A stretch of 32,837 bases of DNA from an uncultured Balneolaceae bacterium (GTDB lineage: Bacteria > Bacteroidota > Rhodothermia > Balneolales > Balneolaceae): positions 1-32,837 of the forward strand of contig CAKZLH010000317.1 of NCBI GenBank assembly GCA_937125285.1, written 5' to 3'. The translations under genes were made by a program, and so were the position numbers. The first letter of the stretch is position 1. Each line of letters starts with the position of its first letter. This document shows positions 1-32,837 of the stretch, piece after piece. The notes beneath the pieces were generated by a model, which was given only the letters and a program-made list of their open reading frames with translations, did not search any database and had not been told where the DNA came from.

Positions 1-1301
1 TCTTCGACATCCTGCTCAAAGAAGGAGTCTTCAGTAGTTTCAAATGGAGAATCCTGAGTAGCTTCAAAGGGTGAATCTTCCTCGGTTAGGGTATCATCAT
101 CAAACAATGAGTCTGACTCGAAAAGGGATTCCGTGTCAGATTCATCAAATGTAGTGTTATCTGTCTCCAAACTTTTTTCTGCGTCTGAAGTCTCTCCGAA
201 TAAGGAAGCAAAATCATCCTGTTCAGTATCACTGGTAGTCGATCCCTCATACTCGCTTTTATTATTTTGCATAAACATGGAGGCGAGTGAATCGGGATGA
301 AGTTCCTCCTCATCTTCCTCCTCTTCGGGTGCTATAAATAGTGTTGACTCTTCTACTTCCTCTGCATTGAATAGTGATGACTCATCATTCTCGTCATTCT
401 CCTCAACCTCATCTTGTACTTCTTCTGTTTCGAGGAAGGGACGATTGAAGAGACTATCTTCGTCATCCACTGATTCAATTTCTGGTGTAGCTTCTACTTC
501 GGGAAGTATTTCCGGCTGCTCATCGACTAAAGGCTCAGAATTAATCTCAGGTTCAGGTATAGGTTCCGGCTCCACTTCAACCAGAGTCTTCTTCTTAATT
601 AGGTCGATGACTTCGTTGACTCGAAGATCGCCCTCACCTCTTAATTTTATAGCCCATTCATTTTTCGAACGATCATCAAAGTAATCAGCCAAAAGGCTCT
701 TAGGTAATTCAACACTCATACAGAGTTGATATAGGGTTTCCAGTTCTTGTTCCCATCTCCCCCAATCATAGCTTTCGGTCAATTTTGAGAGTAACTGTTG
801 AATGATTTGCGATGCTCTTACCTTCGAAAGCACATGAAGTTCTTTTCGTTCGAGGTATCGAGGCAACAGGCGTTTTAATTCTGGGAAAAACAACAGCTCT
901 TCACATCTTTTTTCTAATTCATGTGCCTCTAACTCAACTTTATCACCGTACAAAAAATCCACCAATTGCTCATTGGGTTGAACAAGTATAGGTATCCAAG
1001 TCTGTACAAATTCCTGTCCGATTTCAACCAGTTCCTCCCTTGGCACCTCTATGGTCTCCATCGCAGTGGTGATAAATGATTCCCATTTTGTGCGTACGGA
1101 ATGATCATCCCACTGTACCCAATGTGCATTTGAAGCGTTTAATTGAGAGCGAAACCTGTGCTGAACCTGATTCCAAATGAAGTCTCGTAAGTAGACGGGT
1201 AAGAGTTCGAAATGCTTAAACTGACGCTCATCAACCGATATGGGAAGAGACTTCCACTCCTCTGATAGTAGTTGGGCTACTTGATTTGAAATATTTGTCA
1301 T
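1..1301 (-). CDS. Acidic protein with repeated S-x-F motifs, C-terminus cut by left edge
   Basis: Reading the minus strand from the ATG at 1301-1299 gives 433 codons without a stop to the window edge, so the gene is real but incomplete. I do not recognise the family. Residues 1-238 look globular and helical, rich in Trp, Leu and charged residues, with no signal peptide or membrane segment, so it is probably cytoplasmic. From about residue 240 it becomes a Glu/Asp/Pro/Ser-rich, probably disordered tail. This tail carries about ten short motifs of the type (D/E/A)-S-(L/P/F/M)-F, at residues 282-285, 308-311, 340-343, 365-368, 391-394, 397-400, 409-412, 417-420 and 425-428, plus a STLF at 319-322. 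It is divergent from the CcmA-like ATPase gene with 70 bases between the starts. Function unknown; the tail may be a multivalent docking segment. Confidence 0.85.
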   Translation of the reverse strand, partial: MTNISNQVAQLLSEEWKSLPISVDERQFKHFELLPVYLRDFIWNQVQHRFRSQLNASNAHWVQWDDHSVRTKWESFITTAMETIEVPREELVEIGQEFVQTWIPILVQPNEQLVDFLYGDKVELEAHELEKRCEELLFFPELKRLLPRYLERKELHVLSKVRASQIIQQLLSKLTESYDWGRWEQELETLYQLCMSVELPKSLLADYFDDRSKNEWAIKLRGEGDLRVNEVIDLIKKKTLVEVEPEPIPEPEINSEPLVDEQPEILPEVEATPEIESVDDEDSLFNRPFLETEEVQDEVEENDENDESSLFNAEEVEESTLFIAPEEEEDEEELHPDSLASMFMQNNKSEYEGSTTSDTEQDDFASLFGETSDAEKSLETDNTTFDESDTESLFESDSLFDDDTLTEEDSPFEATQDSPFETTEDSFFEQDVE

Positions 1302-1330
1302 CACGTTTGCGTGGGATTTTTGGTATACTT

Positions 1331-1371: not shown

Positions 1372-1995
1372 ATGATTACGCTTAACGCGACCAATCTTCG
1401 AAAACAATATACTCATCGCAGACTTTTTTCCGAACTCAGCTTTGAGCATCGTGAAGGAACTCTGGGCATTGCGGGTTCTAACGGCAGTGGAAAATCTACC
1501 CTCCTACGATGCTTGGCATTCTTACAGGGAATTGATGGTGGAACCATTCAATGGACCGATAATCATGAAGTCATTGAGCGACCAGCACTACGAGCACAAA
1601 TGGGCTTTGTAGCTCCTAATATTCAGCTGTATGACGAGCTTAGTGTTCTTGAAAATCTAGAGTTTATTGAAGAGTTGAACACACGTGATTCCAATAGAAA
1701 TGTGAGTACTTCAGATTGGCTAATGAGATGTCAGGTAGCCGATTTAAAAGACTATCCCTATCAACGCCTGTCGACTGGACAACAGCAGAGAGTAAAATTA
1801 GCTATTGCTTTGTCGCGAAATCCTAGCGTACTTTTTCTGGATGAACCAGGAGCCAATTTAGATGGACCAGGAAAGCAGCTAATTAGGGAAGTCATGGATG
1901 AGCTTAAACAGCAGCAAACCCTGTTATTACTGGCCACCAATGACCCTAAAGAGTTGGACCTTTGTGATCATATCATCGATCTAAGTGCCTCCTGA
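1372..1995 (+). CDS. ABC transporter ATP-binding protein, CcmA-like
   Basis: Single nucleotide-binding domain of 207 residues with Walker A GSNGSGKS (35-42), Q-loop near Q85, signature LSTGQ (133-137) and Walker B VLFLDEP (153-159). The short length and the LFSELSF and GGTIQW segments resemble CcmA, the ATPase of the haem exporter used in cytochrome c maturation. It would energise an inner-membrane export complex. No CcmB or CcmC permease gene is adjacent: the next gene is an aminopeptidase and the upstream neighbour is divergent. The position normally holding the H-loop histidine reads ATND, with Asn190. The start is an ATG with no clear Shine-Dalgarno. The ABC ATPase assignment is certain; the CcmA role is moderately likely. 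Confidence 0.9.
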   Translation: MITLNATNLRKQYTHRRLFSELSFEHREGTLGIAGSNGSGKSTLLRCLAFLQGIDGGTIQWTDNHEVIERPALRAQMGFVAPNIQLYDELSVLENLEFIEELNTRDSNRNVSTSDWLMRCQVADLKDYPYQRLSTGQQQRVKLAIALSRNPSVLFLDEPGANLDGPGKQLIREVMDELKQQQTLLLLATNDPKELDLCDHIIDLSAS

Positions 1996-2039: not shown

Positions 2040-3131
2040 GTGATTTCTGATTACGATTACCGCCTTGCCGACCTCATTTTAAACCATAGCACAGAAGTGC
2101 AAAAAAACGACCAAGTCATGGTTCAACTTATCGGGTTGAATGGCATCGATCTGCTGCGAGCATTGGTTGAAGGCATCCGTAAGCGTGGTGCCCATCCTTT
2201 TGTTCAAATAGAAGACACCGAAGTGCAACGTACCTTAGTCGAACATGGGGATGAACACTTTTGGAAAAATCAGGCATCCGTAGATCAGCTACCCTTGATG
2301 AAACAAATGGATGTATTTATAGGTATTCGTGCTTCCGAAAATATTTATGAACAATCCAAGGCCAGTAAAGATGCGAATAAGGCATATTCTGAACATTTTT
2401 TAAAGCCTGTTCACTTTGACGAACGAGTAAATAATACTCGCTGGTGCATTATGCGATACCCCTCCCCCGCTTTTGCCATGAATGCAAAACTACCTACACG
2501 GGACTTTACGAAATTTTATTACGAAGCCTGCCTTGTAGACTATGGTCAACTTCAAGAGGCTATGAAACCCCTTGAAACCCGACTGCGAGCAGCCGATCAG
2601 GTACGCTTGGTAGGAGAAGGAACCGATATTAGTTTATCGGTTAAAGGTCAAAATTGGGTACCTTGCTTTGGTCGACACAATATTCCTGACGGGGAAATAT
2701 TCAGTTCTCCTATTATCGATTCCGTTCAAGGTGTCATACGCTATGCCCCTAGCGTCTATCAAGGAAAACCCTTTGAATTCGTTTCTCTTAAAGTAAAAGA
2801 TGGCGTCGTAGTCGACTTTGATTCTTCAAATAACGACGCACTTCGAGATATTTTGGACACCGATAAAGGAGCTCGCCGATTCGGAGAGTTTAGCTTTGGA
2901 ACCAATCCGATTATTGCGAGTCCTATGTACGATATTTTATTCGATGAAAAGATTTATGGCTCTAATCACCTCACCCTAGGTAAAGACTACGAAATAGCTC
3001 CAAACGGAAATTCCAGTAACATCCACTGGGATTTGGTATGTATAGGAGCCGATGTCTATCTCGATGGAGAACTGATTCGAAAAGGTCGCCACTACATAAC
3101 CGACGATTTAAAAGGGCTCAATCCTAGTTAG
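2040..3131 (+). CDS. M29 family metallo-aminopeptidase
   Basis: A 363-residue cytoplasmic enzyme of the AmpS/PepS/aminopeptidase T family, which removes N-terminal amino acids using a two-metal centre. The expected ligands are present: E219 in PDGE, E283 in GEFSFGTN, H310 in SNHLTLG, and H329 and D331 in IHWDL. The start is taken as the GTG at 2040. An in-frame TAA lies 21 bases upstream, and the next Met (residue 27) would remove the conserved N-terminal strand. It follows the ABC ATPase gene by 44 bases and may be co-transcribed with it, but no functional link is evident. It converges on the aldehyde dehydrogenase gene. Confidence 0.9.
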   Translation: MISDYDYRLADLILNHSTEVQKNDQVMVQLIGLNGIDLLRALVEGIRKRGAHPFVQIEDTEVQRTLVEHGDEHFWKNQASVDQLPLMKQMDVFIGIRASENIYEQSKASKDANKAYSEHFLKPVHFDERVNNTRWCIMRYPSPAFAMNAKLPTRDFTKFYYEACLVDYGQLQEAMKPLETRLRAADQVRLVGEGTDISLSVKGQNWVPCFGRHNIPDGEIFSSPIIDSVQGVIRYAPSVYQGKPFEFVSLKVKDGVVVDFDSSNNDALRDILDTDKGARRFGEFSFGTNPIIASPMYDILFDEKIYGSNHLTLGKDYEIAPNGNSSNIHWDLVCIGADVYLDGELIRKGRHYITDDLKGLNPS

Positions 3132-31781: not shown

Positions 31782-32837
31782 TTAATCGGTAGGCGTTTCC
31801 CAGGCCTTCATTTGATCGGATAGATAGGCCGGCAATTGCGCGATGGATACGCGCTCTTGGGCCATGGTATCACGGTGTCGGACCGTAACCGAATCATCTT
31901 CCAAGCCGTCAAAATCTACCGTAATACAGAAAGGCGTTCCAGCCTCATCCAATCTTCTGTAGCGCTTGCCAATCGAACCCGCTTCATCGTATTGTACCGA
32001 ATAATCTTCTTTTAGGTCTTGGCTAATGCGGCTGGCGAGTTCCTGTAGTTCAGGCTTTTTAATTAGTGGAAACACCCCTAACTGTATGGGAGCTAATTTT
32101 GGATGCATTTTTAACACCACTCGGCTATCTCCATCCAATTCCTCTTTTCGATAGGCATCACTTAGTACCATAAGGGTGCAGCGATCCAAACCAATGGAGG
32201 TCTCAATAACATAAGGTATGTACCGTTTATTTTGAGCCTGATCGAAATATTCCATCTTTTTACCCGAATATTCCTGATGCTGGCTTAAATCAAAATCGGA
32301 GCGATTGTGGATGCCCTCAACCTCTTGCCAACCTATAGGAAAATGATACTGAACATCGGCTGCGGCTCTTGCATAATGCGCTAACTTATCGGGTGGATGT
32401 GGAGCAAATCGCAAATTATTGGGTCGTATACCCATGCTTTTATGCCAATCTAACCTCTTTTCGAGCCAGTCTTCATAGGCCTGCTCATCGGTGCCAGGTT
32501 CTACAAAATATTGCATTTCCATTTGCTCAAATTCACGCATGCGGAAGACAAACTGTCTGGCCACTACTTCATTACGAAACGCTTTACCTGTTTGAGCTAT
32601 TCCAAAGGGTACTTTAACCCGGGTTGAGTCGAGCACATTCTTGTAGTTCACAAAAATTCCCTGTGCCGTTTCGGGTCGAAGGTAAACCGCATCATCTTCT
32701 GAAGCTGTAGCCCCAAATGCGGTTTTGAACATCAGGTTGAACTGTCTTACTTCTGTCCAGTCAAAAGCCCCTGAATCAGGCGCTTTAATCTCGTTTGAAA
32801 TAATAATATCGTATAGATCCTCGGTTAAACTCTTTCG
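31782..32837 (-). CDS. glyQS: Glycyl-tRNA synthetase, N-terminus cut by right edge
   Basis: Class II synthetase of the one-chain, alpha2 type, attaching glycine to its tRNA. The reading frame stays open to the window edge, upstream of the first Met at 32732, so 351 C-terminal residues are visible and the start is outside. Visible are YLRPETAQGIFVNYKNV, motif 2 around FRNEVVARQFVFRMREFEQMEMQYF, motif 3 ETSIGLDRCTLMVL, and a C-terminal anticodon-binding domain (LAPIQLGVFPL onward, VTVRHRDTMAQ near the end). It ends near the shared terminator. Confidence 0.96.
   Translation of the reverse strand, partial: RKSLTEDLYDIIISNEIKAPDSGAFDWTEVRQFNLMFKTAFGATASEDDAVYLRPETAQGIFVNYKNVLDSTRVKVPFGIAQTGKAFRNEVVARQFVFRMREFEQMEMQYFVEPGTDEQAYEDWLEKRLDWHKSMGIRPNNLRFAPHPPDKLAHYARAAADVQYHFPIGWQEVEGIHNRSDFDLSQHQEYSGKKMEYFDQAQNKRYIPYVIETSIGLDRCTLMVLSDAYRKEELDGDSRVVLKMHPKLAPIQLGVFPLIKKPELQELASRISQDLKEDYSVQYDEAGSIGKRYRRLDEAGTPFCITVDFDGLEDDSVTVRHRDTMAQERVSIAQLPAYLSDQMKAWETPTD

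Follow-up and report, generated by a model that had tools for sequence, protein, structure and literature searches.

A near-universal, single-copy Balneolales protein with a species-level array of phenylalanine-ending motifs in its acidic interdomain linker

We found that the draft genome of an uncultured Balneolaceae bacterium encodes a 528-residue protein in which a helical N-terminal domain (about 240 residues) and a helical C-terminal domain (about 75 residues) flank an acidic linker carrying ten short phenylalanine-ending motifs. The motif array is statistically real, and the protein, which is near-universal and single-copy in Balneolales and has relatives across much of the phylum, is covered by no Pfam or NCBIfam model and is uncharacterized. 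Our tentative reading, quite possible though short of probable, is that it belongs to the core proteins of the order and acts as a cytoplasmic adaptor, with putative docking motifs exposed on its disordered linker and multiplied in this species. In such an adaptor the two helical domains would be tied together by the long acidic linker, and the linker would present short hydrophobic stretches, each some six residues long, for docking; these may form short helices upon binding, either to another protein or to the two domains themselves. One or two motifs, of the PLWxRF or the SLNDKL type, would be enough in many relatives; multiplying a [DESA]-[ST]-[LMPF]-F form to about ten in this species would give higher avidity or several partners per molecule. 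We infer that the motifs bind something, that their various forms serve one function and that avidity is the point of the array. The array may not share the job of the motifs found in relatives, since the protein studied here has neither the P-phi-W pattern nor the SLN[DE]xL type. The linker motifs are short, well above chance in their recurrence and directly testable as peptides, and their range from one to about ten copies among close relatives offers a natural series for how motif number tunes binding.

The completed protein and its distribution

The window, by which we mean the whole stretch of 32,837 nucleotides analysed, corresponds to contig C317; the draft genome comprises 399 contigs totalling 2.68 Mb. 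The reading frame begins with an ATG at position 1301 of the minus strand and has no end before the contig start. The first 77 nucleotides of the window are, however, identical to the last 77 of contig C221, inside one gene, and among the genome matches listed for this overlap the end of C221 is the only one outside the window. The overlap looks like an assembler's k-mer joint, and joining C317 and C221 there yields the 528-residue protein. On C221 a carboxyltransferase gene follows directly on the same strand; the join is supported by the two other same-genus genomes whose surroundings were compared (L088 and L089), where a member of a single gene cluster likewise comes next, a carboxyltransferase in L088. 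The features of the gene in the window are as follows.

3..1301, minus strand: protein gene, residues 1-433 of 528; the other 95 residues are encoded by C221 (locus L002, minus strand)
582..1301, minus strand: helical N-terminal domain, residues 1-240, matched in 114 of the 128 genomes of the order, its own included
3..581, minus strand: acidic, predicted-disordered linker, residues 241-433, continuing to about residue 456 on C221
1..77, no strand: exact overlap with the end of C221, holding the last three motifs (DSPF, DSPF and DSFF)

The original prediction had described the motif stretch as the tail of the protein and had called for the gene to be followed to its end. Joining C221 did this and changed the picture: the motifs sit in an interdomain linker, with 95 more residues, a conserved C-terminal domain among them, beyond the window. 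Overlaps of 77 nucleotides of this kind may let further contigs of the genome be linked. The other end of the contig also truncates a gene, encoding a glycyl-tRNA synthetase-like protein (31782-32837; named by eye).

The linker (residues 241-456, 216 residues) contains 78 Asp or Glu residues against 3 Lys or Arg, a net charge of -75. In the AlphaFold model, which covers residues 1-432, the N-terminal domain has block pLDDT values of 83-98, apart from 59 at residues 21-30, while the linker from residue 251 is modelled at low confidence (38-58). Two short predicted helices, 339-346 and 363-367, overlap the motifs SLASMF and ASLF. The highest mean hydropathy over 19 residues is 0.73 anywhere in the protein; there is no membrane-type segment, and the protein is therefore presumably cytoplasmic.

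Each of the matching genomes of the order carries a single N-terminal domain match, as do 81 of the 83 high-quality ones. In a profile search of 296 genomes sampled evenly across the phylum, the N-terminal domain was found in 102 and the C-terminal domain (profile A2) in 174, again one match each; the own genome matched A2 with an E-value of 5.7e-31, its domain having helped to build that profile. Relatives that give no N-terminal domain match include short proteins consisting of a linker and the same C-terminal domain.

The N-terminal region had been predicted to match no known family. Indeed, where a cut-off was given, no Pfam or NCBIfam model scored above it for the protein in the window, nor for four relatives. 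A Pfam scan of 28 orthologues returned 12 families, each matching one member and none matching two, with DAAP1 the best (E-value 3.5e-05; no cut-offs given for that scan). PADLOC gave no match at E <= 0.01 for three proteins, and sequence searches of solved structures with profiles of both domains gave none with an E-value below 0.09. We considered an SD-repeat surface adhesin (ClfB) and rejected it; the score was 17.1 bits against an NCBIfam cut-off of 999, in a protein with no membrane-type segment. A literature search retrieved no account of the family, which a survey of Bacteroidetes/Chlorobi signature proteins may include.

The array and the other linker motifs of the family

Three features of the linker bear on the array and its conservation.

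18..458, minus strand: S-x-F array, residues 282-428 (DSLF, SSLF, STLF, ASMF, ASLF, ESLF, DSLF, DSPF, DSPF and DSFF)
438..455, minus strand: SLFNRP, residues 283-288, exact in six of eight same-genus proteins (this one included) and with one change in the other two
273..293, minus strand: DSLASMF, residues 337-343, with SLAx[LM][FY] in all eight same-genus proteins (this one included)

The array consists of nine S-x-F motifs (Ser at residues 283, 309, 341, 366, 392, 398, 410, 418 and 426) and one T-x-F, the T-L-F of STLF at residue 320, all of them within the linker, which holds an extra T-x-F (TTF at 383). In 20,000 composition-preserving shuffles of the 216-residue linker (residues 241-456), S-x-F occurred 1.60 times on average and at most 7 times, so that not one shuffle attained nine. 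The tighter pattern [DESA][ST][LMPF]F occurs 10 times where shuffles give an expectation of 0.29, and 11 of the 14 linker phenylalanines stand in an [ST]xF context. Synonymous positions vary among the motif codons, and Tandem Repeats Finder reported no more than two short arrays (period 9 nucleotides) in window positions 1-1310; the motifs are therefore no recent duplication at the DNA level. The count of about ten S-x-F motifs in acidic sequence was thus predicted correctly. The extent given for them, 1-900, was too wide: the array does lie within it, but 582-900 encodes part of the N-terminal domain. As for the proposal of a multivalent array, a motif array in an acidic, predicted-disordered stretch is real, and partner binding by it remains a prediction from sequence.

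The ten-fold array is not conserved and represents a species-level amplification of a phenylalanine-ending motif. Seven same-genus orthologues have between 1 and 4 S-x-F per linker, the other 21 of the 28 order orthologues between 0 and 2, and some further Balneolales (L048, L050 and L210) up to 3 or 4. Counting [ST][LMPFIV]F, the linker in the window has 10 and the richest of 164 other linkers from the phylum has 4. Among 20 hold-out Balneolales, 22 S-x-F were observed against 14.1 expected, which is near chance. Orthologues lacking the S-x-F repetition had been named in advance as grounds for abandoning the idea of a binding array; the ten-fold repeat is indeed absent from them, but a different form of linker motif is kept, once or twice, in many.

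Within the genus two motifs are kept, the SLFNRP and SLAx[LM][FY] forms listed above, although the order of the SLFNRP-like and SLAxxF/Y motifs is swapped between the protein in the window and its same-genus relatives. In the full alignment the same-genus SLASLF shares columns with SLNxLF of other genera. We had taken SLNxLF from the alignment as a candidate order-wide motif and dropped it because SL[NA]x[LVIM]F occurs in just 2 of 20 hold-outs, which also leaves the link between SLASLF and SLNxLF loose. Separately, one same-genus orthologue (L004) carries LDDVETD five times in tandem in its linker, eight residues apart (residues 345-383), so that a repeat of another kind has expanded in this region. 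Four linkers from another lineage of the phylum (L149, L150, L151 and L152) contain two S[LI]F[DE]xI motifs each, which resemble SLFNRP.

Relatives at class level carry linker motifs of the PLWKRF type, often two. In an enumeration of 960 prefiltered patterns, P-hydrophobic-aromatic-x-x-aromatic came out on top, being present in 70 of 142 linkers against 1.5 expected from two shuffles per linker. The sample was what remained of 165 linkers after 23 redundant or too short ones had been removed, and it included linkers whose cut ran through an SLN[DE]xL-type motif; the first position was limited to P, S, [PST] or [DE], a choice made after the linkers had been read. In hold-out Balneolales, P-[LIM]-W-x-x-[FYL] was found in 17 of 20 (0.02 expected). 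Another branch has an SLN[DE]xL-type motif shortly ahead of the C-terminal domain, seen in 9 of the 20 sequences first inspected; in hold-outs of that branch [ST][LIV]N[DEQ]x[LMI] was found in 15 of 19 (0.14 expected), a set that leaves out L196 as coming from the same genome as the already seen L108. The hold-outs are related to one another, so neither count is one of independent events. Our own reading is that the genus may have swapped the class motif for SLFNRP and SLASxF and that the species then multiplied the S-x-F form; this would be motif turnover with function kept.

Fold of the N-terminal domain and weighing of the linker's role

To characterize the fold we used, besides the model of the protein in the window, that of a class-level relative (L113), which is full length, has a mean pLDDT of 90 and is confident for both domains. 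With either model, 48 of the best 50 Foldseek rows were, by their titles, EF-hand or DCN1-type proteins, but no solved fold was matched with an E-value below 0.1. The top VIA-align rows were OtDUB (Z up to 7.5). EF-hand rows reached a Z of 6.2 (calbindin, 2.4 Å over 64 residues), which is below the level termed meaningful for helical folds and may reflect a mere common arrangement; they place residues of about 105-178 and 178-250 as two single lobes. The listed matches of both programs barely extend over the C-terminal domain. The calcium-loop pattern D-x-[DNS]-x-[DNSG]-G is absent from all 30 N-terminal domains of alignment A1, hhalign detected no internal sequence repeat when lobe was compared with lobe, and no EF-hand Pfam family matched the 28 orthologues (E <= 0.1) or the protein in the window (E <= 1). 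The EF-hand likeness of the predicted N-terminal domains is thus a weak lead.

The adaptor reading draws its support from the array beyond chance, the low-confidence linker with short predicted helices over two motifs, the two motifs kept in the genus, the recurrence of other motifs in the pattern scan and in hold-outs, and the near-universal occurrence in the order; counting against it, S-x-F is barely enriched elsewhere in the order and gene neighbourhoods differ among lineages. The linker could instead serve chiefly to space the folded domains, as an acidic entropic tether, with those domains doing the work and the phenylalanine repeats being low-complexity drift of little function. The confinement of ten copies to this species, against at most four in the 164 other linkers, and the wide variation of linker length and motif type over the phylum would fit such a spacer, but the shuffles, the two genus-wide motifs and the recurring hold-out motifs all speak against mere drift, and we consider it rather unlikely. 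It gains, nonetheless, from the same two results that lower the standing of a further alternative, namely an unremarkable motif helix in L113 and top VIA-align rows that are not EF-hand proteins. EF-hand proteins bind aromatic or phenylalanine-containing peptides, and in that alternative the lobes of a calcium-independent, EF-hand-like N-terminal domain would recognize the protein's own linker motifs, in cis as auto-inhibition or in trans as self-assembly. The Foldseek titles, the two lobes spanned by the EF-hand rows and the position of the L113 motif PLWRRF (265-270) within a predicted helix (266-277) are in line with this self-recognition. That helix, however, is predicted with no higher confidence than the stretch just upstream (mean pLDDT 66 at 251-260, 67 at 261-270, 55 at 271-280, then 41 and 45 in the next two blocks), and the EF-hand rows are not independent, as the PDB is rich in calmodulin. 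Adding the Foldseek E-values, the modest EF-hand Z-scores, the missing calcium-loop pattern, lobe repeat and Pfam match, and the many relatives that have the C-terminal domain but no recognized N-terminal domain match, some of them with SLN[DE]xL, we judge self-recognition unlikely.

A bolder version would be a widespread bacterial domain-motif system, in which an EF-hand-like module that needs no calcium would, together with aromatic docking motifs arrayed in the acidic linker of the same protein (PLWxRF, SLFNRP, SLNDKL), form a self-assembling scaffold, decavalent in this species. We hold this to be quite improbable; if true, it would be a bacterial counterpart of EH-domain/NPF adaptors. The peptides that calmodulin-type proteins bind are amphipathic helices anchored by aromatic residues, and PLWKRF appears to look like such a calmodulin target peptide; calmodulin and its relatives are also like the N-terminal domain models in that EF-hand proteins fill most Foldseek rows, but unlike them in that here no fold match is significant and the 30 N-terminal domains lack the calcium-loop pattern. 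Eps15/epsin-type endocytic adaptors carry DPF repeats, and EH domains are of the EF-hand type; the protein shares with them many phenylalanine-ending tri- or tetrapeptides within a disordered stretch, and perhaps EF-hand-like lobes as well. It differs in being bacterial, in its S-[LPMF]-F motif, in the weakness of its EF-hand likeness, in the lack of any sequence kinship found and in that its docking is predicted. The pairing of EH domains with NPF ligands is described in the literature (PMC12808100, PMC8927860).

The sliding clamp and the gene neighbourhood

Acidity and a Pro-Phe ending are shared by the DSPF copies and the tip of SSB, which works at the free C-terminus of that protein; the motifs here, however, are internal and followed by a conserved domain. 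The original prediction had guessed at the DNA sliding clamp as a partner, a reading that we now regard as extremely unlikely. It arose from the resemblance of xSLF to positions 2-5 of the clamp motif, which a review defines by a Gln at position 1, [LM] at position 4 and [FL] at position 5 or 6 (PMC11139829). The same review describes the Gln as important but not essential (PMC11139829), and one copy, QDSPF, has it, both of which leave some room for the guess. Nine of the ten copies, however, lack the Gln, the tenth has Pro instead of Leu or Met, and neither Q-[ILVAM]-x-[LM]-[FL] nor the hexamer form has a match in the 528 residues. Meanwhile, by pattern, Pol III alpha has QxxLFG in six of six genomes (QVNLFG in the own genome), and one Y-family polymerase of the own genome has QMNLFF, in a check that leaves out locus L221, where the frame taken was another protein. 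Since the polymerases keep the Gln, the clamp of this organism apparently continues to use it. The linker charge of -75 would, moreover, fit poorly with clamp faces that are mostly negative save near the pockets, as the review has it (PMC11139829). Like bacterial clamp-binding proteins, the protein presents a short motif with a Leu-Phe core outside its folded domains, but those proteins have one or two copies where it has ten, none of which matches Q-phi-x-[LM]-[FL].

On the other side of the gene lie two genes of the plus strand.

1372..1995, plus strand: adjacent gene in divergent orientation, a CcmA-like ABC ATPase (117 bits, short of the 131.6 required for CcmA)
2040..3131, plus strand: M29-type aminopeptidase, the next gene beyond the ABC ATPase

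We compared 40 regions, in 39 of which the target frame was called (the exception being L092). Each of the 17 other Balneolales regions has an ABC ATPase from a single homologous cluster in divergent orientation, and in each the gene that follows on the target's strand belongs to the carboxyltransferase cluster, at a distance of 0-21 nucleotides in 15. The protein in the window shares both neighbour clusters as well as the order-wide N-terminal domain similarity. This constancy, with the carboxyltransferase on C221 and in L088, could mean that the protein is an accessory factor of the adjoining acyl-CoA carboxylase, but outside the order the neighbours mostly differ while the C-terminal domain persists, and we find such a role very improbable. 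There an Obg-like gene lies downstream in 8 regions and 5 have a thymidine kinase-like gene in divergent orientation, each cluster being named from one member checked against Pfam. Neighbourhoods thus vary by lineage and do not point to a single pathway. The five regions with a thymidine kinase-like gene are L106, L107, L108, L109 and L112, two of which have a tetrapyrrole-methylase-type (RsmI-like) gene next. Thymidine kinase loci serve for counter-selection in Bacteroides genetics, and mutants near this thymidine kinase-like locus may exist.
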